Below are positions 295 through 10,668 of a DNA stretch of 64,000 nt, in pieces; position 1 is the stretch's first letter; every line of letters starts with the position of its first letter. Origin of the DNA: Christensenella massiliensis (lineage in GTDB: Bacteria; Bacillota; Clostridia; Christensenellales; Christensenellaceae); assembly GCA_900155415.1 (NCBI GenBank), contig LT700187.1, positions 1,178,001 to 1,242,000 of the forward strand, read 5' to 3'. Made by a program: the position numbers and the translations under genes. The notes beneath the pieces were generated by a model. It was not told where the DNA came from, did no database searches, and saw only the letters and a program-made list of their open reading frames with translations.

Positions 295-1819
295 CGTTAC
301 GAATTAGAACGGTTTCATCCAAGCCCAGATTGCCAAGCAGCCGGAGGTAAATATCCACATTCCCATCCTTGTCCACCTCAATCTTCTGGATGATCCGCTT
401 GAGTTGGGCGTTTGTCATTTGCCGCACATCCGTGATGTCCTCAATCTCCTTGAAAGTCTGTTGCAGAATACTTTCCAATTGCTCGCCCTTTGTCAGATGG
501 TAGGACACCATTTTCAGTTCATTTTCCAGCCGTTCAATCTCTTTCCGCATCCCGCCGATCTTATCATTGAGTTCCTCGCGGGAGATTAAATCATCGGCGT
601 ACATATCCATGTATTTCTGCCGCGTCTTTTGCAGTTTGGCAAGCTGGGCGGTCAATTCCTTTTCATAGTTCAGGTTTTCATCCTTTGCCTTATAGACCCG
701 CTGGAATTCCCCTACTACATAACGGATCACATTCTTTTTTGCTTTCAGCAGCCCGGCGAAATACTCCTGTAAAACCTCGATGAGTTCATCTTCATCCACC
801 GTCACGGCGTTGGGGCAGTTGTCCGCCCCGCGCCCATTGTGGCCGGAGCAGACCCACCGGACATAGGTGTTCTTGTAGGTGCGGACGGTACGCCGGAAGG
901 ACCAGCCGCACTCCTTGCATTTAATGAGGGTGGAGAACAGGTATTTGTTGCTCTGGCGCTCCTTGTCCACCTTGAACGCCTTACCGCGGGATTTCATAAT
1001 CTGCTGCGCCTGTTCAAAGGTTTCCGGGTCGATGATCCGCAAGTCCGGGCGGTCAACCACCATCCACTCCGAAGCATCCTTGTCCGCCCGCTGGCCGGTC
1101 AGAAAGTCGGTGACTTCCTGTTTGCCATTGATGATTTTCCCCGTATAGAGTTCATTGGTCAGGATGCGGCACACCCCGTTCTGGCTCCATTGGCAATTCC
1201 GCTTTGTCCGCAGGCCGCGCTCGTTGAGGAAGATGGAGATTTTTGCCGCCCCGTAGCCGTCCTTGATGTACCACTGGTAAATCTGGCGGACAACCGCCGC
1301 TTCTTCCTCATTGATTGCAAGGTTGAAGTAATCCCCGATGGTCTTATCATACCCATAGACGATATTGGGGACGCGGCCTTTTTCCGCGTTCATTTTCTTG
1401 CCAAATTTAACACGCTTGGAGGTGTTCGCACTTTCTTCCTGCGCCAGCGCCCCGAAGATGGTCAGGACAAATTCGCTGTTGCCCATGCTGGTCATGTTGG
1501 CGGTCAAAAACTGCGTTTCAATCCCCAACGCTTTCAGCTTGCGGACATTCTGCAAGAGGTCAACGGTGTTCCGGGCAAAGCGGGAAATATCTTTTACCAC
1601 GACCATATCAAAGAGGCCATGTTCCGCATCCGCCATCATACGCAAAAACTCTTTCCGGTTCTTGATTTTCGTCCCGGAAATGCCCTCGTCTGCGTAAAGG
1701 CGCACAAGGTTGTCCCCGGTGCGTTTGGTATATTCGGAGAAGAATTCTTTCTGCGCTTCCAGGCTGTTGAGCTGATCCTCTTTGTCGGTGGAAACGCGGC
1801 AGTAAGCTGCGATGTTCAT
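188..1819 (-). CDS. Large serine recombinase (integrase/excisionase of the element)
   Basis: This site-specific recombinase should integrate and excise the element by a serine-phosphodiester mechanism. The N-terminal resolvase domain (residues about 1-150) has 'AYCRVSTD' with the presumed nucleophile Ser10. It is followed by the recombinase domain (about 160-270), a zinc-ribbon region with 'CKECGWSF' and later 'VCSGHNG', and a coiled coil (about 375-445), the order typical of the TndX/phiC31-like class. The ATG follows GAGAGG at a good distance. The native sequence probably ends near 'ETVLIRND'. In the integrated form the frame reads across the junction into the antisense of the host methyltransferase and stops at 188. 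In a circle joined at the CGT triplet it would end in about 13 different residues. It is last in the leftward gene set. Confidence 0.93.
   Translation of the reverse strand: MNIAAYCRVSTDKEDQLNSLEAQKEFFSEYTKRTGDNLVRLYADEGISGTKIKNRKEFLRMMADAEHGLFDMVVVKDISRFARNTVDLLQNVRKLKALGIETQFLTANMTSMGNSEFVLTIFGALAQEESANTSKRVKFGKKMNAEKGRVPNIVYGYDKTIGDYFNLAINEEEAAVVRQIYQWYIKDGYGAAKISIFLNERGLRTKRNCQWSQNGVCRILTNELYTGKIINGKQEVTDFLTGQRADKDASEWMVVDRPDLRIIDPETFEQAQQIMKSRGKAFKVDKERQSNKYLFSTLIKCKECGWSFRRTVRTYKNTYVRWVCSGHNGRGADNCPNAVTVDEDELIEVLQEYFAGLLKAKKNVIRYVVGEFQRVYKAKDENLNYEKELTAQLAKLQKTRQKYMDMYADDLISREELNDKIGGMRKEIERLENELKMVSYHLTKGEQLESILQQTFKEIEDITDVRQMTNAQLKRIIQKIEVDKDGNVDIYLRLLGNLGLDETVLIRNDETDGSSRSPRAARLFCAPPPFCKRRARRACRCPQ
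302..314 (+). repeat. Left terminal inverted repeat of the element
   Basis: AATTAGAACGGTT here is the exact reverse complement of AACCGTTCTAATT at 10656-10668. In a circular intermediate the two would flank the crossover about symmetrically, as the arms of a serine-recombinase attP do. The repeat also encodes the last codons of the recombinase frame. Confidence 0.8.
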
Positions 1820-1912
1820 AGCAAAACCTCTCTGTTAAAATCAAACCGTTCTGTTACAACCCTATTTTATCATGTGCTGTTTGGGATTGCAATAGGGAAA
1901 GGGGCGCCCCGT

Positions 1913-2092
1913 TTATGCAGGGCGCCCCTCGTTATCCTTTTCGCCGGAACCATCCGCCGTATCTGCGGCAGCCTGTATGGCAAGCTGTACCTTTTCCTGG
2001 TTTGCTTTCATGAAGATTTTCAGTAAGTAATCGGCGGTAGCTGCCGTTGGGTTTGGGTTATGGAACCGGTAATTGAGTTTGCGTTCTTTCAC
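1913..2092 (-). CDS. Small conserved protein of mobilizable elements, unknown function
   Basis: This is a 59-aa protein, 'KERKLNYRFHNPNP' at the N-terminus, with a helical middle and an acidic tail. An in-frame ATG exists upstream, but a strong ribosome site (AAGGGGAGG) sits just before a GTG at 2092, so I chose that start. It lies between the relaxase and the recombinase on the same strand. From memory, short proteins with this look occur beside serine recombinases in gut Firmicutes elements. No domain or catalytic motif can be recognised. A role in recombination or its regulation is only a guess from position. Confidence 0.7.
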   Translation of the reverse strand: MKERKLNYRFHNPNPTAATADYLLKIFMKANQEKVQLAIQAAADTADGSGEKDNEGRPA

Positions 2093-2175
2093 AGCAGCAT
2101 TCCCACCTCCCCTTGCTGTCTGTCCTTTGTCCATGTCTATGAAAACAAGACGGAAAATAGTACCTGATTGGATTG

Positions 2176-3123
2176 TCAAAGATCACGCTCCCGGCGGGGC
2201 CGCTGTGCCCGTTCCAATTCCCTGCGGATTTCCGGCGGGATACGGTCAACCAGCCGCTGTAAATCGTCCAGCTTGCTTTTCAGCTTTGCCCGTTCCATCG
2301 TATCTTTCAGCTTGCCTTTTTCGCTGGCCTTTGCCCTTGCTTCCAGCTTCTCATTTTCTGCCAGCAGGTCATTGATTGTGACCTTGTACTTTTTCAGTTG
2401 CCCGGAGAAATTCTCCATCTGCGGGAACCACTTTTTCAGCATGGAGAGGGTTTCCTCTTTTTTCTTTCCGGCGTTCAGCGGGTTAATGCCGTCAAGGGCG
2501 GCTTCAATGGCTCTTGCCTGCCGGGAGAGGGAAACCGCCTGTTTGAAAAGCCGGGTGGGGATATGCTTCCGGCCTGTCCTGCTGGCGCTCTCCCCACGCT
2601 CCAAGTCGGGATATTTTTCCACCATGTAGGTGTGAAAATCATCCTGCCACTTCGTCAGGTTCGCCCGGTTTCCGATAATCTCCTTTGCACACAGGCGGTT
2701 GTCCTTTGTCAGCGGAACAAAGGTCAAATGCAGGTGGGGCGTTTTCTCGTCCATGTGTACCACCGCCGACACGATATTTTCCCGGCCTACCCGTCCGATG
2801 AGGAAGTCCGCCGCCCTCTGGAAGAACGCCTTTATCTCCTTTGGGGATTTCCCCTGGAAAAACTCCGGGCTGGCGGTTATCAGCGTATCGACAAACCGTG
2901 TGCTATCTTTCCTTGTCCGGCATCCGGCCTGCTCGATACGGCTCTGAATGAAGTGGTAATAGCGTCCCTCCGGCTTGACGATATGGAAATTGTATTTGCT
3001 CCGGCTGGTGTCAATGTCGGGGTTGCTGGCATACTGGTCTTTCTGCCGTTCGTGATGGGCTTCCAGTGGCCTTGCCGGGTTGCCCTTGTGCTTTTCAAAC
3101 CGTAAAATTGCGTGTTGTGCCAT
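2176..3123 (-). CDS. MobV-family relaxase (Mob/Pre plasmid recombination protein)
   Basis: The relaxase should nick oriT and pilot the transferred strand through a helper conjugation system. The N-terminal domain contains the MobV signature 'HMDEKTPHLHLTFVPL' near residue 125, giving the metal-binding histidine cluster, preceded by a typical 'HNERQ/K..Y.SNPDID' type segment. The C-terminal third is a lysine/glutamate-rich coiled coil, usual for Mob/Pre proteins. At 315 residues it is short but complete-looking. The ATG at 3123 follows AAAGGAG. The oriT of this family usually lies just upstream, so 3124-3305 is the place to look. No coupling protein or type IV genes are present. Confidence 0.92.
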   Translation of the reverse strand: MAQHAILRFEKHKGNPARPLEAHHERQKDQYASNPDIDTSRSKYNFHIVKPEGRYYHFIQSRIEQAGCRTRKDSTRFVDTLITASPEFFQGKSPKEIKAFFQRAADFLIGRVGRENIVSAVVHMDEKTPHLHLTFVPLTKDNRLCAKEIIGNRANLTKWQDDFHTYMVEKYPDLERGESASRTGRKHIPTRLFKQAVSLSRQARAIEAALDGINPLNAGKKKEETLSMLKKWFPQMENFSGQLKKYKVTINDLLAENEKLEARAKASEKGKLKDTMERAKLKSKLDDLQRLVDRIPPEIRRELERAQRPRRERDL

Positions 3124-3305
3124 TCTGCTCCTTTCCCCATTCCTTTCCTATCCGGGGTTTTCCACAGGGAAAATCCCGCAGAAAATAGCTCAGATAGGAT
3201 TGGAATGGATAGAATATAAATCAATCTTTTTATCTTTATATTTCTATATACCGTCCGGTTTTCGTACTTCCGGGGAGTGATTTCCGTACTTCATGGGTAC
3301 GGTTT

Positions 3306-3701
3306 TCAGCCCTCCGGCGTACCAGAACCGGATTTCTTGAAGTCGGTGTTTGGAACCGCTTCATAGGATTTTGGAAAAATGCGGTTGGGTTTTCCACAGC
3401 CCTGCTTCTGGATCTCCACCAGCCCCGCATACTGCAATTCCCGCAGGGTGTTCACCGCTTTCTGCCGCCCACAGTGGAGCAGGTCAACCACTTCACAAAT
3501 AGGGTAATACAGGAAAATCCGTCCGCAGTCATCCGCCCACCCATTCTTGCGGGATAACTCTGTCCGGCGCAGGATAAAGGCGTACAGAACCTTTGCCTCG
3601 TTGGACAGGGGTTTGAATGTGGGGGCTTCAAAGAGAAAATTCGGGAGCCGGGTGAAGCTGAACGCCTTTTCCGGCTGGTGGATATAGATGGTATTTGTCA
3701 T
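3306..3701 (-). CDS. RepA N-terminal-domain replication initiator, short form
   Basis: The sequence 'FSFTRLPNFLFEAPTFKPLSNEAKVLYAFILRRTELS' is typical of the RepA N-terminal winged-helix domain (RepA_N family). The protein stops after 131 residues just past 'PNTDFKKSGSG'. The DNA that follows still reads like the low-complexity 'KYENRT/EVRKS' tail seen in longer relatives but in other frames, so the C-terminal domain is absent or was lost by frameshift. It may bind element DNA and support circle replication or copy control. No strong ribosome site is visible. It lies between the VLP-type gene and the relaxase, on the same strand. Confidence 0.75.
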   Translation of the reverse strand: MTNTIYIHQPEKAFSFTRLPNFLFEAPTFKPLSNEAKVLYAFILRRTELSRKNGWADDCGRIFLYYPICEVVDLLHCGRQKAVNTLRELQYAGLVEIQKQGCGKPNRIFPKSYEAVPNTDFKKSGSGTPEG

Positions 3702-3813
3702 AGTGCGTTTTGTGGACGGTTAGAAGCCCGTTTTCCGGGGCGGGCGATAGGTTTATACCACCCGCCCCGGTTTGGGGCTTGCGGAGCCTGATAAATCAAG
3801 GCTTTTTCCGCTC

Positions 3814-4212
3814 CTAACTGTCCACAGCAGACCTCCTTTTCCGTTCACTTTCTGTTTTCTGCCGCCTGTGAACTCTGGCGGCGCAGTCCGGGCAGTATTT
3901 CCCCCGGTTGGAGCGTGGGACAAAAGCCGCCCCGCAGACCGCACAGCGTTTCAAGTCCTTATCCCGGAAAATCCCCGCTTCCAGCGTCCCGTCCAGCGGC
4001 AAGACCGCCCAGCGGAACCACTTACAGCAGACCGAGAAAGAAACCCTCTGCGGGCAGGTGCAGGTGTCCCCATCGTCAAGGGCAATGCAGTTGCCGCCCT
4101 CAAAGCAACAGCACTCCCGGCGTATCAGGCTGGCCGCCTGTTTCCTCTGGGCCGGTGTCATGCGGTAAAGGGAACCGTCCGGCCTGCGTTCCAGCGGCGG
4201 CAAAGTTTTAAT
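3814..4212 (-). CDS. Cysteine-rich VLP-type protein of mobile elements
   Basis: The 115 residues from the internal Met hold two cysteine groups: 'ECCCFEGGNCIALDDGDTC' and the zinc-ribbon-like 'CAVCGAAF...CPDCAARVH', ending in a basic tail 'RRQKTESERKRRSAV'. This matches the cysteine-rich VLP family found beside RepA and Mob genes in Clostridia elements. The role is unknown; the basic zinc-ribbon end suggests nucleic-acid binding. The start is uncertain: the ATG at 4161 is certain to be in frame. An ATT at 4212 preceded by GAGGGAT would add 17 residues ('KTLPPLERRPDGSLYR') that relatives seem to share, so I drew the gene from there. Confidence 0.7.
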   Translation of the reverse strand: MKTLPPLERRPDGSLYRMTPAQRKQAASLIRRECCCFEGGNCIALDDGDTCTCPQRVSFSVCCKWFRWAVLPLDGTLEAGIFRDKDLKRCAVCGAAFVPRSNRGKYCPDCAARVHRRQKTESERKRRSAVDS

Positions 4213-4276
4213 AGAATGGATGCTGATCCCTCGTTTCTTGTTGTATTCAACCGGTTGTGAGATCAGTTTATCATGA

Positions 4277-4316
4277 AAAAATGCAATTCCCGTTTTTCTG
4301 CGGGAATTGCATTTTT
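4277..4316. terminator. Perfect 16-bp hairpin with flanking A and T runs between divergent genes
   Basis: Arms 4277-4292 and 4301-4316 pair perfectly around an 8-base loop, with A-rich and T-rich outer ends, the form of a bidirectional rho-independent terminator. It lies between the two divergent gene sets of the element, so it may insulate them or act as an attenuator for leftward transcripts starting near 4400. Confidence 0.6.
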
Positions 4317-4371
4317 GCCATCGTGTAGACCTTTGAAATTGTAAATCTGCAATTATCGCTATTCCTAAATG

Positions 4372-4384
4372 CCATACAGTATGG
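4372..4384. promoter_or_regulatory. Candidate operator palindrome upstream of the XRE regulator
   Basis: CCATAC-A-GTATGG is a 6-1-6 palindrome 36 bases before the XRE start codon, overlapping the expected promoter of that gene. The compact shape fits an XRE dimer. Autoregulation, and control of the leftward mobility genes, is inference. Confidence 0.5.
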
Positions 4385-4419
4385 TAAACTGAAAGAAATA
4401 CAGGCAAGGAGGGGGAAAT

Positions 4420-5229
4420 ATGGCGGCAAAGCAGCTTGACGGGCATCCAGGCGACCGGATTGGCGATTTGAGGACGAACCTGGGGATGACAAAGAAGGAG
4501 TTGAGCCAGAAAACCGGGATCGACGCCTCCCAGATTACCCGCATTGAAAACGGTAACCTCAAAACCATCAGCAGCGATTATCTGATAAAGCTGGCAAAGG
4601 AATTGAAAACATCTACGGATTATATCCTGGGCCTTACCCCTGTCAGCGTTCCCAAAAGCTATGATATTTCTGAATTGGGCCTGTCGAATGAAGCGGTCAA
4701 AGGGCTTGTGACGGGTACGGTTGATGCGGAAATCCTTAACCGCCTGCTGGAACACAAGAGTTTCCCCCGGTTAATCCATCTGATCCGGGTTTACTTCCAA
4801 GATACGGCGGCGAGGGGGATTATGGCACGCAACCAGCTTATCGAGATGGCAACGGCTTCCCTGTCCGCCCTGATGAAAGAACACCCGGAACACCGGGCGG
4901 AAGCAAAGCAGGATTTACAGTTTTTGAACGCCCAAAAGCTGGGGGAGCATGAAGCGGAACTTGAAAAAATCAAAAATGTGTTCCTTGCAATCCTGCGGGA
5001 TATTAAGAAAGATATGGACAGCGGCGAACAACCGGGAGAAGTCGCCACCGCTGTGATGCTCCAAACCATGCGGGCCACGCTGGCGGAGCAACAGCAGGAG
5101 CCGGTGACAATGGATGATGTTGCCGGGATGGTTGCCGGTCAGCTTGGGCAACTCGTCCCAATGGACGAGGAAACGGCGGAGCAGTTCCGGCAGTTGGCAA
5201 AGAAGATGATGGAGCAGGCAGGAAAATAA
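4420..5229 (+). CDS. XRE-family helix-turn-helix regulator of the element
   Basis: A 269-aa regulator. Residues about 12-65 form a Cro/CI helix-turn-helix: 'GMTKKELSQKTGIDASQITRIENG'. The rest is a long helical domain with no recognised ligand site and a glutamine/glutamate-rich C-terminus, as in regulators of gut mobilizable elements. The ATG at 4420 follows AAGGAGGGGG. It is divergent from the VLP-repA-mob-recombinase set and is the first gene of the rightward half. A palindrome sits in its promoter region. I infer that it controls element maintenance or transfer genes; it could also govern the cargo downstream. Confidence 0.85.
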   Translation: MAAKQLDGHPGDRIGDLRTNLGMTKKELSQKTGIDASQITRIENGNLKTISSDYLIKLAKELKTSTDYILGLTPVSVPKSYDISELGLSNEAVKGLVTGTVDAEILNRLLEHKSFPRLIHLIRVYFQDTAARGIMARNQLIEMATASLSALMKEHPEHRAEAKQDLQFLNAQKLGEHEAELEKIKNVFLAILRDIKKDMDSGEQPGEVATAVMLQTMRATLAEQQQEPVTMDDVAGMVAGQLGQLVPMDEETAEQFRQLAKKMMEQAGK

Positions 5230-5251
5230 AGATTCTATTGGGGGATTAAAT

Positions 5252-5785
5252 ATGGATGTATCAACTATTGTTAATATTATTTTGTGCGTTCTTTCGTTCA
5301 TCCTGGCGGTTATCTCTGTCGTCACAGTTGTAATCACTTTACGCCAGAATAATAGGATGATTGAAGAATCAACACGACCGTTCATTTCTGTTTATACTGA
5401 TGAAATTAACGCAGGCGATCCATTTTTCTATTTAGTTGTTAAGAACTTTGGAAAATCCACAGCTTACATAACAAAGTTTGAGTATGACTTCGATTTCAAC
5501 GGATGCTATAAAATCCGGAATGATAGAGATTATTTGCAACAACTTAGTACTGCTGTTTTGGCTCCGGGGCAATCACGAATCTGCACACTTGATTATCAGA
5601 AAATAAATAAAGCCGTAACATTTACTCTTGAATACCATTCTGGGGCCAAAAAGACATATTCAGATAAATTTACGATTGATTTAAAAGCGGGCGTAAGTAT
5701 GCCCTATGGTAAAGTTGCTACGGAGGGCAAAGAACTTCGCACGATTTCCTATGCTCTGCAAGAAATGTTGCAGAAAAACCTCTGA
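5252..5785 (+). CDS. Single-pass membrane protein, unknown function
   Basis: A 177-aa protein with one N-terminal membrane segment (residues about 6-31, 'IILCVLSFILAVISVVTVVI') and then a soluble, beta-rich domain ('PFISVYTDEINAGDPFFYLVVKN' and further strands). The polar domain follows the membrane anchor after 'RQNNRMIEEST', so it probably faces the cytoplasm if the short N-terminus is outside. A GGGGG stretch precedes the ATG. The gene begins 22 bases after the XRE gene, at the point where base composition becomes more AT-rich. I do not recognise the family. Its position before a restriction-modification cassette allows, but does not show, a role in defence. Confidence 0.7.
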   Translation: MDVSTIVNIILCVLSFILAVISVVTVVITLRQNNRMIEESTRPFISVYTDEINAGDPFFYLVVKNFGKSTAYITKFEYDFDFNGCYKIRNDRDYLQQLSTAVLAPGQSRICTLDYQKINKAVTFTLEYHSGAKKTYSDKFTIDLKAGVSMPYGKVATEGKELRTISYALQEMLQKNL

Positions 5786-5819
5786 TGGTTCGCGTTGCCC
5801 ATGTGCTGTATTGAAACAC

Positions 5820-5848
5820 TTGCATCATTTCGCTTAAACGAATATAAT
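5820..5848 (+). promoter_or_regulatory. Sigma-A-type promoter of the restriction-modification operon
   Basis: TTGCAT (5820-5825) and TATAAT (5843-5848) are separated by 17 bases. Transcription would begin near 5855, upstream of the small HTH gene, methyltransferase and endonuclease. The spacing and the perfect -10 make this one of the clearest promoters in the window. Confidence 0.75.
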
Positions 5849-5895
5849 ATACTTGGTTGGCTGTAGACATTCAGGATGATTATGAGGTGTCGCAA

Positions 5896-6090
5896 GTGAA
5901 TGGATATATAACGGTTCAAGAAGCTGCTGAAAAATGGGGAGTAACTCCACGACAAGTTCAGATATTGTGCAAAGAAAACCGCATAATGGGTGCGTCGCGC
6001 ATGAGTCGTATCTGGATTATCCCGGAAAATGCCGAGAAACCAACGAAAGATAGCATTACAAGGACGAGGAAGAAAAATGACAAACAATAA
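5896..6090 (+). CDS. Small helix-turn-helix protein, candidate controller of the R-M operon
   Basis: A 64-aa protein with 'ITVQEAAEKWGVTPRQVQILCKENRI', a MerR/excisionase-like winged-helix DNA-recognition segment (helix_turn_helix 17 type). I chose the GTG at 5896, which has GAGGTG six bases upstream; the in-frame TTG at 5857 would lie at the transcription start. The gene overlaps the methyltransferase start by 14 bases, so translation is probably coupled. By position it could act as a controller protein that times methyltransferase and endonuclease expression. It is shorter than and different from the classic XRE-type C proteins, so this role is inferred. Confidence 0.7.
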   Translation: MNGYITVQEAAEKWGVTPRQVQILCKENRIMGASRMSRIWIIPENAEKPTKDSITRTRKKNDKQ

Positions 6091-7267
6091 TTTGACAATG
6101 ATTGACTTGTTTGCAGGTGCAGGTGGGTTATCTGAGGGGCTTTCTGAAGCCGGCTTTCATAGTTTGTTTGCTTCAGAAATTATGCCGGTGTATGCTGCAA
6201 CATATCAAAAAAACCATCCATCGGCCAAAGTTTTGACCGCAGATATTCGTACCCTTGATGCTGACCAAATTCGGGATGAGTTAGGTATTGAGCGGGGCGA
6301 ATTAGACCTTCTTGCGGGTGGGCCACCCTGTCAGGGTTTTTCAATCAATGCTCCTGTGCGTAGCGTGCTGGATCAGCGGAACCACTTATTCAAAGAGTAT
6401 CTTCGCTTTGTTGATGCCTTTGCGCCAAGAGCAATACTAATCGAAAATGTTCCTGGTCTTGTTTCTTTTGAACATGGAGCAACTCTCCATGCAATTTTGA
6501 ATGCTTTGGCCGAATTGGGATATGGCGCGGATGTCCGTATTCTGGGAGCAGCATATTATGGTGTTCCTCAAATGAGGTGGAGGACGATTATACTCGGCTT
6601 AAGAGGGCGGAATCTGCCAGCTTTGGCGTTCCCAGAACCGATTTATCATGCACCTATAAAACCAAATTTTACAACAACTTTTGACGGACAACTTTTGGTG
6701 AAACTTCCTTCTCCCGAAGCATCTGCCAAATTTACGACGGTACAAGAGGCAATTGGAGATTTGCCCCTCTTAAAATGCGGTGAACGCGGGGCAGCAGTAA
6801 AGGAATATGCTTGCGAGCCGATGTGCGATTATCAGCGGCGGCTACGAATCGGGAGCAGTGGTGTATATAATCATGAAGCACCTCGGCTTTCAAAAGAAAA
6901 CCAAGAAAGACTTAAGTATATCAAACCCGGTGGAAATTGGACTGATATTCCTGATGATCTTTTACCAAAAGGGATGCAGAGGGCAAGAAAATCAGATCAC
7001 ACCAAGCGATATGGGCGTGTGACACCTGATGGTCTGGCCTCAACGATTTTGACGAAGTGTGATCCACATTGGGGGGCTTACTTCCATTATAGCCAAGATC
7101 GGTCTTTTACAGTAAGGGAAGCCGCGCGTATACAGTCGTTCCCAGATCATTTTATCTTTACAGGAACACAGGGCCAGCAGTTTGCACAAGTGGGAAATGC
7201 TGTTCCGCCTCTGTTGGCAGAAGCGGTCGGATTGGCATTGAAATCTATTTTAGCGGAGGGAAAATAA
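6077..7267 (+). CDS. DNA (cytosine-5-)-methyltransferase of a type II R-M system
   Basis: This 396-aa enzyme transfers a methyl group from SAM to C5 of cytosine, protecting the host from the neighbouring endonuclease. Motifs run in the canonical order: I 'DLFAGAGGLSEG' (residue 10), IV 'GGPPCQGFS' with catalytic Cys85, VI 'ENVPG' (123), VIII 'QMRWR', IX 'REAARIQSFPDHF' and X 'QVGNAVPPLLA'. A target-recognition region of ordinary size lies between VIII and IX. The ATG at 6077 follows AGGACGAGG and gives a start right before motif I. The endonuclease start codon follows the stop directly. The recognition sequence cannot be read from the protein. Confidence 0.95.
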   Translation: MTNNNLTMIDLFAGAGGLSEGLSEAGFHSLFASEIMPVYAATYQKNHPSAKVLTADIRTLDADQIRDELGIERGELDLLAGGPPCQGFSINAPVRSVLDQRNHLFKEYLRFVDAFAPRAILIENVPGLVSFEHGATLHAILNALAELGYGADVRILGAAYYGVPQMRWRTIILGLRGRNLPALAFPEPIYHAPIKPNFTTTFDGQLLVKLPSPEASAKFTTVQEAIGDLPLLKCGERGAAVKEYACEPMCDYQRRLRIGSSGVYNHEAPRLSKENQERLKYIKPGGNWTDIPDDLLPKGMQRARKSDHTKRYGRVTPDGLASTILTKCDPHWGAYFHYSQDRSFTVREAARIQSFPDHFIFTGTQGQQFAQVGNAVPPLLAEAVGLALKSILAEGK

Positions 7268-8179
7268 ATGGCCGGTTATATTGCGGAGTTCTTCGGCTAT
7301 CGGACAGAGGATAAATCGGAGCAGGCTATCACAGCGGCGACGCGGCAACTTTGCCCTTTTCTTGGTACTCAGTGTACAAAGGTTTTATCTCGTGATCGCA
7401 TCGTTGCCGGAGTATGTGCTGTTCGGCAAAAGACAGTGGGTTCCCCAAATGTGATTTGTTGTCCAAATCGGATCTACGCAGAAAATTATAAAATGTTACA
7501 TCTCGTCGCACAGCAAGCATTTGGTTGTGAATTGGGGTTATATTCTGGTCGTGCAGCCGTAGAAAAAGCAAAATTGGAAAATGGTGCAATAGCTGTTTTC
7601 GGGCATGGATGGGGTGGAGAACTGCGCTTGCCCCAGCGTGCAGGTACAGGTTCCTATTTTGTCGATTGGGTTTTGGCCCGGCTGGATGGAAACGGAGAAC
7701 TTACAGAGTTTACTGCCATTGAAGTACAGACAATAGACACGACCGGAAATTATCGTGAGGCACGCTCTGCTCTTTTGGAGAATCGTGAAATTGTCGCAGA
7801 TACGGTAGGGCTTAACTGGGAAAATGTCTCGAAGCGGATTATCCCCCAGCTCATCTATAAAGGACAAGTTTTGCAACGCGAAGATTTATGCAAGACGGGG
7901 CTATTCTTTGTGTGTCCTAAGGCGGTTTATGATCGTGTACTTAATAGACTGGGCGGGAAAGATCGCATTCCGCGTTTCCCTACTCAGCCAGCTTCCATTC
8001 ACTTCCTTGCTTACGACTATCAGGGAGCTACTGCGGATGGAATGATTACTCCGCTTGGTATACTGGAAGAACACTGCACGACGGTCTACAAAGTGCAGGA
8101 GGCTTTTTCTTCAATGAATCTCCCAGAGGGGAATGTTTACCGCGATGCTATTCGTAGATCGCTATACGGTAATGATTAA
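7268..8179 (+). CDS. NotI-family type II restriction endonuclease
   Basis: The start 'YIAEFFGYR', then 'CPFLGTQC', 'AGVC', 'ICCPNRIY', 'FGHGWGGEL', 'YFVDWVLA' and 'AIEVQTIDT' follow in order the pattern I recall for NotI (IAEFFG, CPFL, GVC, CPNR, GGEL, FDWTLA, EIQTMD). Asp133, Glu152 and Gln154 would form the PD-(D/E)xK-type active site. Cys29, Cys36, Cys50 and Cys64 or Cys65 correspond to the Fe-Cys4 structural site of NotI. At 303 residues it is shorter than NotI (about 380). The ATG begins immediately after the methyltransferase stop. Target specificity is not predictable; it should match that of the adjacent methyltransferase. Confidence 0.88.
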   Translation: MAGYIAEFFGYRTEDKSEQAITAATRQLCPFLGTQCTKVLSRDRIVAGVCAVRQKTVGSPNVICCPNRIYAENYKMLHLVAQQAFGCELGLYSGRAAVEKAKLENGAIAVFGHGWGGELRLPQRAGTGSYFVDWVLARLDGNGELTEFTAIEVQTIDTTGNYREARSALLENREIVADTVGLNWENVSKRIIPQLIYKGQVLQREDLCKTGLFFVCPKAVYDRVLNRLGGKDRIPRFPTQPASIHFLAYDYQGATADGMITPLGILEEHCTTVYKVQEAFSSMNLPEGNVYRDAIRRSLYGND

Positions 8180-8224
8180 GATTACATATCAGTTGATAGT
8201 TTTGGATGAAATGGAGGGAACAAC

Positions 8225-10291
8225 TTGACCGGCGAAATGGGTGTGGCGCTCGACCTAATGCGACTTGAGGGTATTTGTAAAATGCTATTAGAAAGTCTTG
8301 AAGCAGATGAATTGGAGACTAAATTTCTTGCTGTAACAGGACAACAAAAAGTTGAAAATATTAAAAATTCCCTTCTGAAATTGACCAAAGCCGAATTGCG
8401 CCAGATTGTCGAGTTATCGCCTACAATTACAGAGTCGGTTATAAAAAAGTACTACAATGAATATCGTTATGGCCGAAAACCAGGATTTGTATTATTCTGG
8501 GCAAGCGGCTTTATCGGGAAATCAATAAATGAAGAACAATTGAAAAATGACCTGCAAAGAGTTCTTTCTGGCAAAACCTATAAAGAGGATGCGAAATTTA
8601 AAGATTTGAAGTGCGTTGCCGCAACTAGCTGGAAAGAAAGCGAATCAACGATTTTTGAGATAGGGCTCAGCTACTTAAAAAAATATTCTTTCATAACGGC
8701 AGACAACAACTTCGATTACATTCATGAGTTGACAGATTGTTTCGCATGGATAAATGCTGAAAAAGGATTTGTTGCCCTCTACAATATGCCCCCGTCCATT
8801 GAAGGTATTATAAAGCAGGCTGTTTTTCATTTATACGGTGTAAAGATGCTTGGCTTATCGCTAAATAGGAGTGTGTTAGACACGATCTTCGATCCAGACA
8901 ATAGAAAAAAGATGTCTTTGACACATTATAGTTCTGATAGTGAAAAACCTCAAAAGGCCACATTTTCAGACCCAGATTTGGCCTCAAAGCAGGAATCTAT
9001 TCTAGCTGATTATGATGGATATGATATTGCATCTTCACTCTATAGTGAAGGAATCGATGACGACACAACAGCTATTCTTGGAATTAATAGTCATCGTGGA
9101 AAACTCTATATAAACAGAAATTTGACTACTACACAGTTCCGACAATGGAGCGTTCGCCGCATCAACACTATTATTGACTATTTTACTGATGTTTTCACAG
9201 ACGAAGGAATAGATAAGATTGACCACATCCAACTCTTTAACGGAGCTACGTGGGGAAGACTACGCACTTCAGCAAGAGATATGCTGAACAATTTGGCGAA
9301 ATGTATTTTGATCTGTAAGCAAAAAGGACTAACAAGTTATCCAATTTCAATTGAATCGTCTAATATGTTCTGGACATTCAAAAATAAAATTGACTATTGT
9401 TTCTTGTTAAACTGCGATAATTGTAACGAAACCGTAATTCCTTCGTGTCCCAATTGTAGCAAGAGTATATTTGCTTTGACAAAAAACGGCATAATTTGTC
9501 AATCCTGTGGTGAAACTGTACATTCATTTCGATGTGAGTGTGGACATATCAATACAACATCTTCTGTCGAAGATTGCTTATCTGTGACACTCAAAGATGA
9601 ATTTGCATCTTCGATAATACAGGAGTTACAGACGGTTGTCCCTTCAATGTCTTTAGCGGAGAATGAGTTCCTAGCTATACACAATGGTTATTTGCACATC
9701 ATGTGCTCTGACGGATATAAGAGACTGCTTCCTAAAGATATTCAAACCTTTGAACCACTGTATGCATTTACTTTGAATCAGTCAATTATTGATAACGCAA
9801 ATTCTGTCCTAAGCCACTTAAAAGAAAAATGTAATCGACATCCAACGAATGAGATGTGCCAATCTTGTAAATATAAGACTCCTTCGACTCCTAGCGATTT
9901 AAAATGTTTGCAACAGCTATTTTGTGTCTTTAATGATTTTACGCCCAAACCACATCAAGGACAAGAATATGGCGATATTTCTATAAGTGTCATGTATGAG
10001 GGGCGGAAATGTAATCTGCAAGGGATCATGAAATCTCAAACAAGCAAAATAACGCGATCATCAACTGTAGGCCGCGAGATTACAGATCAGGTTATAAAAG
10101 GCTTGGTAGATAATCGTACAGATATAATTTCCGTTATTGTACCTGCGTTATTAGACGACCAGCTGATAGAAACATTATTGACCTTGGCGCGTCGGTTTAA
10201 TAAAAAGCTCCTATTCCTTGACTCGGATTTTATGTATCGACTTGAGTATTACTATGAGCTAAAAATAGCGCAAAGCAAAACTCAACCATGA
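8225..10291 (+). CDS. 688-aa protein with zinc ribbons, unknown function, in the R-M cargo operon
   Basis: The start is a TTG at 8225 preceded by GGAGGGAAC. Residues 1-390 show no motif I know. Paired cysteines at 397/400, 408/411, 425/428 and 437/439 form one or two zinc ribbons; a further group C536, C545, C548 and C561 may bind another metal. The last hundred residues ('EYGDISISVMYEG' then 'LQGIMKS', followed by 'DIISVIVP' and 'NKKLLFLDSDF') have the strand-strand-helix rhythm of a restriction-endonuclease-like fold. The acidic residue before the lysine is replaced, so activity is doubtful. It follows the NotI-like gene by 45 bases and is equally AT-rich. A defence or R-M accessory role is inference. 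Confidence 0.75.
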   Translation: MTGEMGVALDLMRLEGICKMLLESLEADELETKFLAVTGQQKVENIKNSLLKLTKAELRQIVELSPTITESVIKKYYNEYRYGRKPGFVLFWASGFIGKSINEEQLKNDLQRVLSGKTYKEDAKFKDLKCVAATSWKESESTIFEIGLSYLKKYSFITADNNFDYIHELTDCFAWINAEKGFVALYNMPPSIEGIIKQAVFHLYGVKMLGLSLNRSVLDTIFDPDNRKKMSLTHYSSDSEKPQKATFSDPDLASKQESILADYDGYDIASSLYSEGIDDDTTAILGINSHRGKLYINRNLTTTQFRQWSVRRINTIIDYFTDVFTDEGIDKIDHIQLFNGATWGRLRTSARDMLNNLAKCILICKQKGLTSYPISIESSNMFWTFKNKIDYCFLLNCDNCNETVIPSCPNCSKSIFALTKNGIICQSCGETVHSFRCECGHINTTSSVEDCLSVTLKDEFASSIIQELQTVVPSMSLAENEFLAIHNGYLHIMCSDGYKRLLPKDIQTFEPLYAFTLNQSIIDNANSVLSHLKEKCNRHPTNEMCQSCKYKTPSTPSDLKCLQQLFCVFNDFTPKPHQGQEYGDISISVMYEGRKCNLQGIMKSQTSKITRSSTVGREITDQVIKGLVDNRTDIISVIVPALLDDQLIETLLTLARRFNKKLLFLDSDFMYRLEYYYELKIAQSKTQP

Positions 10292-10333
10292 ACAAGTGCC
10301 GGTTATATCCCCGCTGCCACTCCCGAAACCGCC

Positions 10334-10367
10334 CAGGTTTTTGCTCATCCCCATTCGCAAAAACCTG
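10334..10367. repeat. Hairpin 1 of the element right end
   Basis: CAGGTTTTTGC (10334-10344) pairs with GCAAAAACCTG (10357-10367) around a 12-base loop. It begins about 40 bases after the stop of the 688-aa gene, so it may end that transcript. Confidence 0.6.
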
Positions 10368-10478
10368 TCCGTTTTCCTGCCGGGCAAAGCGAGTGTTTCC
10401 ATCCGGCGAAACCCTCATTTTACCCGCCAGCCGTGACAGCAGGTATAACACACTACACTTTGCAAGCAAAGCCGTGTG

Positions 10479-10499
10479 CCAAAGGGGCGTCCCCTTTGG
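10479..10499. repeat. Hairpin 2 of the element right end
   Basis: CCAAAGGGG pairs perfectly with CCCCTTTGG around the loop CGT. No T run follows, so it is less like a terminator and more like a structural or protein-bound site. Confidence 0.6.
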
Positions 10500-10572
10500 A
10501 AACCCCTGTTTTGCCGGGAAGCCGGTGCAACCCGCAAAATCGCAGCTGCACCCCTTCCCTCCAAAACGCAAT

Positions 10573-10619
10573 CAGGCGGCATAGGCCAGCCCGTCCCCGG
10601 TGCTGATCTATGCCGCCTG
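10573..10619. repeat. Hairpin 3 of the element right end
   Basis: CAGGCGGCATAG (10573-10584) pairs perfectly with CTATGCCGCCTG (10608-10619) over a 23-base loop, ending 36 bases before the terminal inverted repeat. Confidence 0.6.
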
Positions 10620-10655
10620 CTTAGCCTTGTGGGCGCTTACTGTATCGCCCATATT

Positions 10656-10668
10656 AACCGTTCTAATT
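10656..10668 (-). repeat. Right terminal inverted repeat of the element
   Basis: AACCGTTCTAATT is the mirror copy of the left repeat at 302-314. The shared CGT with the left junction follows nine bases further on, at 10678-10680. Confidence 0.8.

Follow-up and report, generated by a model that had tools for sequence, protein, structure and literature searches.

The question that this locus raises is what kind of protein is made by the last gene behind a C5-methyltransferase gene and a NotI-like restriction gene in Christensenella massiliensis. The window that was analysed is a stretch of 64,000 nucleotides (GCA_900155415.1, contig LT700187.1, positions 1,178,001 to 1,242,000), and the gene, at 8225-10291 on the forward strand, encodes a 688-aa protein of an unnamed family. 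In our assessment, with a probability of roughly 55%, this is a stand-alone, rare, mobile and sometimes defence-adjacent family of cysteine-rich proteins with a predicted C-terminal nuclease domain of the PD-(D/E)XK type. The protein family is genuine, nameless in the libraries searched, mobile and partly linked to defence, and it is likely to have a restriction fold.

The reading frame is free of internal stops and begins with a TTG codon that is preceded, six bases ahead, by the sequence GGAGGG at 8213-8218; a homologue from the same genus (genome G002, 57-58% identity) has an ATG at the position aligned with this start. When the two genes are compared over 683 codons, codon positions 1, 2 and 3 differ at 0.367, 0.242 and 0.618, respectively, and 75 of 103 fourfold sites differ, with an NG86 dN of 0.38 and a dS that was not computable, which we read as saturation. 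The pattern at codon positions and fourfold sites indicates that the gene is under purifying selection and is no chance open reading frame. The intact frame of 688 codons, its position behind the NotI-like gene and its membership of an AT-rich cargo block were all part of the preliminary description of this DNA and all stand: the gap to the NotI-like gene, on the same strand, is 45 bp, and the GC content is 0.374 for the gene itself, 0.458 for the methyltransferase and 0.473 for the NotI-like gene against 0.543 in the 8 kb that precede the window.

The gene lies within a mobile element of 10.4 kb (302-10668) that has a serine recombinase, a Mob_Pre relaxase, a RepA_N gene and 13-bp terminal inverted repeats, AATTAGAACGGTT on the left (302-314, + strand) and AACCGTTCTAATT on the right (10656-10668, + strand). 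The large serine recombinase (188-1819; PF00239, PF07508, PF13408), the relaxase (2176-3123; PF01076, 4.8e-51) and the RepA_N replication-protein N-terminus (3306-3701; PF06970, 3.4e-29) are on the minus strand, and an XRE-type helix-turn-helix protein (4420-5229; PF01381, 4.6e-13) is on the plus strand. Upstream of the methyltransferase there is also a 177-aa putative membrane-anchored protein (5252-5785, + strand) with no significant family, a weak PycTM match (E 0.012) and a GC content of 0.373, like that of the 688-aa gene. The element interrupts a host gene, a SAM-methyltransferase as judged by eye, that is found in two pieces in its own genome; the joined target protein has unbroken frames in G001 and G002, two of five other congeneric genomes, the other three giving no match.

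No family had been recognised at the outset, and none has emerged since: searches of Pfam, NCBIfam, PADLOC, PHROGs and PDB sequences with the 688-aa protein gave nothing significant, and no PADLOC family was matched at E values of up to 1. The best Pfam match over eight family members was a zinc finger at 0.0064, obtained with one member only, and the family profile run against PDB sequences returned ribbon-type noise with a best E of 0.027. Matches to Pfam DUF4844, DUF2321 and C1, and ribbon-type matches in the PDB, were rejected as their E values lie beyond usefulness. PADLOC's PDC-S02 is weakly matched by homologues at loci L013 (1.8e-4, aa 15-112) and L015 (0.001) and not by the 688-aa protein.

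Searches of overlapping genome samples, plasmids and viral contigs define a family of nine loci: the window, genomes G002, G239, G437, G478 and G1440, the viral contig L012, a Paenibacillus polymyxa plasmid and a Rubrobacter plasmid. Identities to the 688-aa protein are 58% for G002, 24% for G239, 25% for L012 and 26% for the Paenibacillus protein, which lacks its N-terminal half and has a further piece of C-terminus in another frame; the G478 gene is split across two contigs. True members were found in 2/18, 2/391, 3/398, 1/200, 2/2, 1/392 and 3/396 genomes of the individual samples (own genome counted where drawn), the 2/2 sample being the class of G437, in about 1,800 genome searches overall with samples that overlap. 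Thus the family is rare and patchy. Further candidates from three of these samples were dropped: G917 (1/200 sample), where the match is to topoisomerase ribbons; G1318, G1172 and G1048 (1/392 sample), with no match in an open reading frame, topoisomerase-like ribbons and a short ribbon protein, respectively; and, on grounds of length, G014, G1411, G1443, G1461, G1506, G1508 and G1583 (3/396 sample), which cover 44-83 profile positions in the ribbon region. A scan with the motif pattern gave three loci by chance (L026-L028) and a fourth, L029, that is the L012 contig again. Among plasmids the 688-aa protein matches one record, that of Paenibacillus, and other members as queries add only Rubrobacter. 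No phage record was matched by the 688-aa protein, viral scans with it and with the proteins of L007, L019, L006 and L051 gave no relative, and the L012 protein as a viral query finds itself alone, again with no phage record.

The two groups of paired cysteines that had been picked out early on are seen in the nine-row family alignment. A zinc-ribbon-like block (aa 397-439, 9413-9541, + strand) contains four pairs, C397xxC400, C408xxC411, C425xxC428 and C437xC439, with C397, C400, C408, C411, C428 and C437 present in eight of nine rows, C425 in seven and C439 in four; the two CxxC knuckles expected of a zinc ribbon, the first two pairs, are thus found in 8/9 rows. The block is wholly absent from the Rubrobacter member. 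The second cluster (aa 536-561, 9830-9907, + strand) has the form C536-x8-C545-xx-C548-x12-C561, with C536, C548 and C561 in every row and C545 in seven, and the G239 and G1440 proteins have an additional cysteine elsewhere in its loop. Searches for ribbon families with the members and the profile gave weak matches of ribbon type, none of them significant. We consider both clusters as probable zinc or other metal sites on the basis of these conserved cysteines. The N-terminal region (aa 1-390, 8225-9394, + strand) is absent or mostly absent in the truncated rows L004 and L014, and prediction of the structure of the full-length protein was uninformative, with a pLDDT of 37.9.

More can be said about the C-terminal domain (aa 566-688, 9920-10288, + strand). 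An AF2 model of aa 522-688, calculated with one relative (two sequences in all), shows the order strand, strand, helix, strand, helix, strand, helix, with block pLDDT values of 72-88 over fragment residues 71-140, 56 over residues 61-70 and less than 50 before residue 62. The model places D584 (fragment residue 63, inside the block with mean pLDDT 56) just ahead of the first strand and K603 just past the second. In Foldseek no match falls below an E of 0.001. Cap4 heads the list (4.3e-3), RPB5-type chains, MspJI and Avs4 also rank high in it, and SppA, PCNA-loader and crotonase-type chains, whose folds are unrelated, occur among them. VIA ranks RPB5-type chains at the top together with Avs4 and gives Z scores for restriction-fold proteins of 7.6 (Avs4), 7.5 (EcoT38I), 7.1 (EndoMS), 6.7 (Card1), 6.2 (AspBHI), 6.0 (FokI) and 5.9 (MspJI), a range to be read with the knowledge that best Z values of 7 to 8 are usual even when there is no clear relative; mannosylglycerate synthase, an unrelated chain, scores 7.0 and STAS-type chains 5.5-6.4. 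The best 50 VIA rows comprise what we take to be 14 nucleases or nuclease-like proteins of restriction fold, 24 RPB5-type RNA-polymerase chains and 12 others, so that presumably 38 of the 50 have the restriction fold, all with Z below 8. RPB5-type chains share this fold and are non-catalytic relatives. Because one fold recurs among the matches and because of the placement of D and K, we predict a PD-(D/E)XK restriction-endonuclease fold for the modelled domain, with moderate confidence and at Z scores below 8 that are weak by themselves, and the resemblance suspected earlier is in this sense probable.

A check for linkage to defence genes had been proposed along with the preliminary description, and it gives a positive result in part: clear defence neighbours are found at 3/9 loci (the R-M pair of the window, Dnd/Pbe genes in G239, HsdR and HipA in G1440), one further locus is suggestive and none is recognised at five, all as raw counts. 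Beyond the three defence loci, four more are on mobile elements and two in a housekeeping locus. In G239, PADLOC identifies PbeA (676 aa), PbeC and then DndB, DndC, DndD, DndE and DndA, with the homologue 29 bp behind dndA; an AAA protein encoded upstream has matches of restriction type. The same island (L018 1-10000, L007 1-11765) also contains a 1334-aa protein with a PglW-like stretch and, behind PbeC, a 176-aa protein that has no PADLOC match. In G1440 an HsdR gene that runs off the contig start (PADLOC 6.8e-142), a helix-turn-helix gene and HipA precede the homologue, HsdR and HipA both lying within 5.4 kb. On the Paenibacillus plasmid the adjacent gene encodes a helicase that has DpdE/BrxH/DrmD-like matches, and 5 kb away there is a DNA methyltransferase, a setting that is no more than suggestive of defence.

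Among the neighbours of G002, L012, L019, G437 and G478, judged mostly from translations or record annotation, no defence gene was recognised. The G002 copy is flanked by two tyrosine integrases and has a helicase neighbour with a weak DinG-type PADLOC match (3.8e-5); adjoining it between the integrases is a protein of 239 aa (L006 11160-11879) whose N-terminus carries a zinc ribbon and which has a weak 8xMP match (E 0.02). The L012 homologue is located at the end of its contig, with a serine recombinase 3 kb away and genes of phage type further on (as judged by eye), and may be outside the prophage proper. On the Rubrobacter plasmid, integrase and transposase genes are both found within 4 kb, and the stretch around the homologue has no annotated defence gene. 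In G437 the homologue sits between murB and a glycosyltransferase-9 gene, and G478 appears alike by eye. These housekeeping-locus homologues, from two genera (L013 8196-10487, L014 7-1266, L015 8704-9813), have lost nuclease residues, and it is possible that they have been re-used for another role. A bolder proposal would build on all of these settings, making the family a single-gene antiphage nuclease and modification-aware effector that pairs with 5-methylcytosine R-M, Dnd/Pbe and type I R-M systems, with a recognition half based on metal clusters, a restriction fold whose active site has migrated, and a housekeeping clade that lost catalysis and was re-used; we regard this as a tentative extension, conceivable and well short of probable.

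A small set of residues is relevant to whether the predicted domain could cut DNA. The motif HxGxE(Y/F)GD, with E581 and D584, spans aa 577-584 (9953-9976, + strand), and the motif G-I-x-K603 spans aa 600-603 (10022-10033, + strand), with I601 in place of the usual glutamate of (D/E)xK. E618 and Q622 (aa 618-622, 10076-10090, + strand) are located in the predicted helix that follows the strand of K603, E618 being a candidate for a migrated acid. Over the nine rows H577 and D584 are invariant, K603, E581 and Q622 are found in seven and E618 and D629 in six, so that the catalytic Asp and Lys typical of PD-(D/E)XK enzymes are present in 9/9 and 7/9. At the position two before the lysine, six rows have I, two have Y, one has F and none has an acid or Q. 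The replacement of the acid that had been noted for D584 and I601-M602-K603 in the window, residues that are indeed at the positions first given, therefore extends to the whole alignment. The complete set of H577, G579, E581, G583, D584, G600, K603, E618, Q622 and D629 is found in six rows (the window, G002, G1440, G239, L012 and Paenibacillus). The five homologues among them share 20-57% identity with the 688-aa protein, and in G239 and G1440 an insert lengthens the K603-E618 spacing. The Rubrobacter member keeps D584, E581, K603 and Q622 and has lost E618, G583 and D629, and in L013/L014 (G437, G478) E581, K603, E618, Q622 and D629 are all missing and D584 is retained. The losses in L013/L014 belong to one lineage and hence perhaps to one event.

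These patterns bear directly on the possibility that the protein is a catalytically dead, DNA-binding member of the restriction fold that serves as a regulator or sensor, and a regulatory pseudo-nuclease was indeed what had first been suggested. In line with such a protein, the K-2 residue is hydrophobic in 7/9 rows and tyrosine in the other two, RPB5-type chains are the largest group of structural matches by our classing, and L013/L014 are plainly without the site. Against it, D584, K603, E581, E618 and Q622 are kept jointly in 6/9 rows at identities that go down to 20%, and for the most part they are lost together in L013/L014. Joint keeping and joint loss would be the pattern expected of a working site. 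Given this pattern the odds of an unusual active site appear to be no lower than those of an inactive one, with E618 or E581 as residues that could stand in for the missing K-2 glutamate; the suggestion of a pseudo-nuclease is not borne out in its original form, and we consider a dead protein unlikely.

The protein had also been viewed as a possible accessory of the adjacent R-M pair, that is of the C5-cytosine DNA methyltransferase (6029-7267, + strand; PF00145, 8.8e-66) and the NotI-like type II restriction endonuclease (7268-8179, + strand; PF12183, 2.9e-08; PADLOC REase_II, 3.6e-41). In this case it would be an accessory or regulatory subunit whose inactive nuclease domain modulates the pair, and the shared strand, the short distance behind the restriction gene, the missing canonical glutamate and the fact that no terminator-like site separates any of the three genes are all as might be expected. 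However, the NotI-like enzyme is matched in 28 plasmid records (coverage of at least 80% in 27 of them, and more than 50% identity at a coverage of at least 84% in 24) and in Pseudomonas phage vB_Pae_U8 (56.6% identity), and none of these 29 records was matched by the 688-aa family in the plasmid and phage searches. A cytosine methyltransferase is listed under the match in 18 of the 28 plasmid rows, and at two such pairs, L053 and L054, small hypothetical genes follow. Moreover, no NotI-like gene was recognised in the neighbourhoods examined of the homologues, and PF12183 is matched by the NotI-like neighbour and not by the 688-aa protein. As the NotI-like enzyme is common without it, the 688-aa gene is a passenger, neither a regular subunit of the R-M system nor a constant partner of the pair, and from its differing GC content it was probably acquired separately. 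An accessory role is thus doubtful, and a modulating subunit quite improbable. The REase relatives, up to 57.9% identical on proteobacterial plasmids, imply in their own right that the pair (6029-8179) has jumped between phyla.

A Vsr/EndoMS-like repair nuclease, acting on T:G mismatches that arise from deaminated 5-methylcytosine of the neighbouring methyltransferase, is very unlikely: Vsr genes commonly accompany C5-methyltransferases, one of which is two genes upstream here, and EndoMS/NucS chains are matched at Z 7.1 and 5.9, but EndoMS is one among many tied matches, no C5-methyltransferase was recognised at the other loci examined and the G239 copy adjoins phosphorothioation genes.

The stand-alone nuclease family is the reading that we take as best. 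In such a protein recognition of a state of the DNA (unmodified, foreign-modified or intermediate) would fall to the N-terminal half together with the cysteine clusters, and the C-terminal domain would nick or cut this DNA, using D584 and K603 and an acid from E618 (or E581) instead of a K-2 glutamate. Mobile elements would have spread the family and sometimes parked it beside DNA-modification defence systems. Metal binding, nuclease activity, recognition and an antiphage role are all properties that we infer for the family, and an antiphage role of the 688-aa protein is a reasonable though tentative inference.

How does the family compare with known systems? With Dnd/Pbe defence it shares a setting, the G239 homologue being the last gene behind dndBCDEA with pbeA and pbeC upstream; it differs from the Dnd and Pbe proteins in that no PADLOC Pbe or Dnd profile is matched by that homologue at E up to 0.1 or by the 688-aa protein at E up to 1. 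An MTaX1 domain has been reported with methylase-bearing DndE systems in PMC10853773. MTaX1 (PF20296) is not among the best 25 of the 28 families that are matched by any of eight members at E up to 10, and in 99 genomes, own included, PF20296 gave no match, in a search whose positive control was also silent in its 14 genomes. In the portions available, PMC10853773 describes modification neighbourhoods with a variety of nucleases that are likely to act as restriction effectors and names HKD, HNH, NERD, 'multiple REase families', URI, HEPN and PIN; a zinc-ribbon REase is not named there, and the 688-aa family could be among its unnamed REases. Nor was a description of an architecture that joins a zinc ribbon to a restriction fold found in the available parts of the open-licence literature searched. 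Phosphorothioation clusters contain varied nucleases and their actual cutting or restriction step is disputed, as far as the available text of PMC6459918 and PMC10853773 goes, so that the family, if our reading is true, would supply a candidate restriction effector for them, and the genes that accompany DNA-modification defence would gain a nuclease family not yet catalogued.

The PD-(D/E)XK superfamily (Avs4 nuclease domain, EcoT38I, Cap4, MspJI/AspBHI, Card1, EndoMS) resembles the 688-aa protein in the predicted core order, the D...K pair and Z scores of about 6 to 7.6. The 688-aa family differs from it in having neither acid nor glutamine at K-2, in its conserved signature HxGxE(Y/F)GD...GIxK...ExxxQ, in the four-cysteine cluster ahead of the domain and in giving no family match at the sequence level. 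In enzymes of the Cfr10I/Bse634I/NgoMIV and EcoRII/Ecl18kI types the catalytic glutamate has moved to the following helix, some 14-15 residues after K. None of these enzymes is in the best 50 rows of either fold search, which is evidence neither way. With them the 688-aa protein has in common its D, its K and the predicted placing of an acid in the helix that comes next (K603 to E618), and G239 and G1440 differ from them by a spacing that is longer through the insert; if our reading is true, the active-site pattern of the family would provide a clean test case of a restriction fold that works without the usual glutamate.
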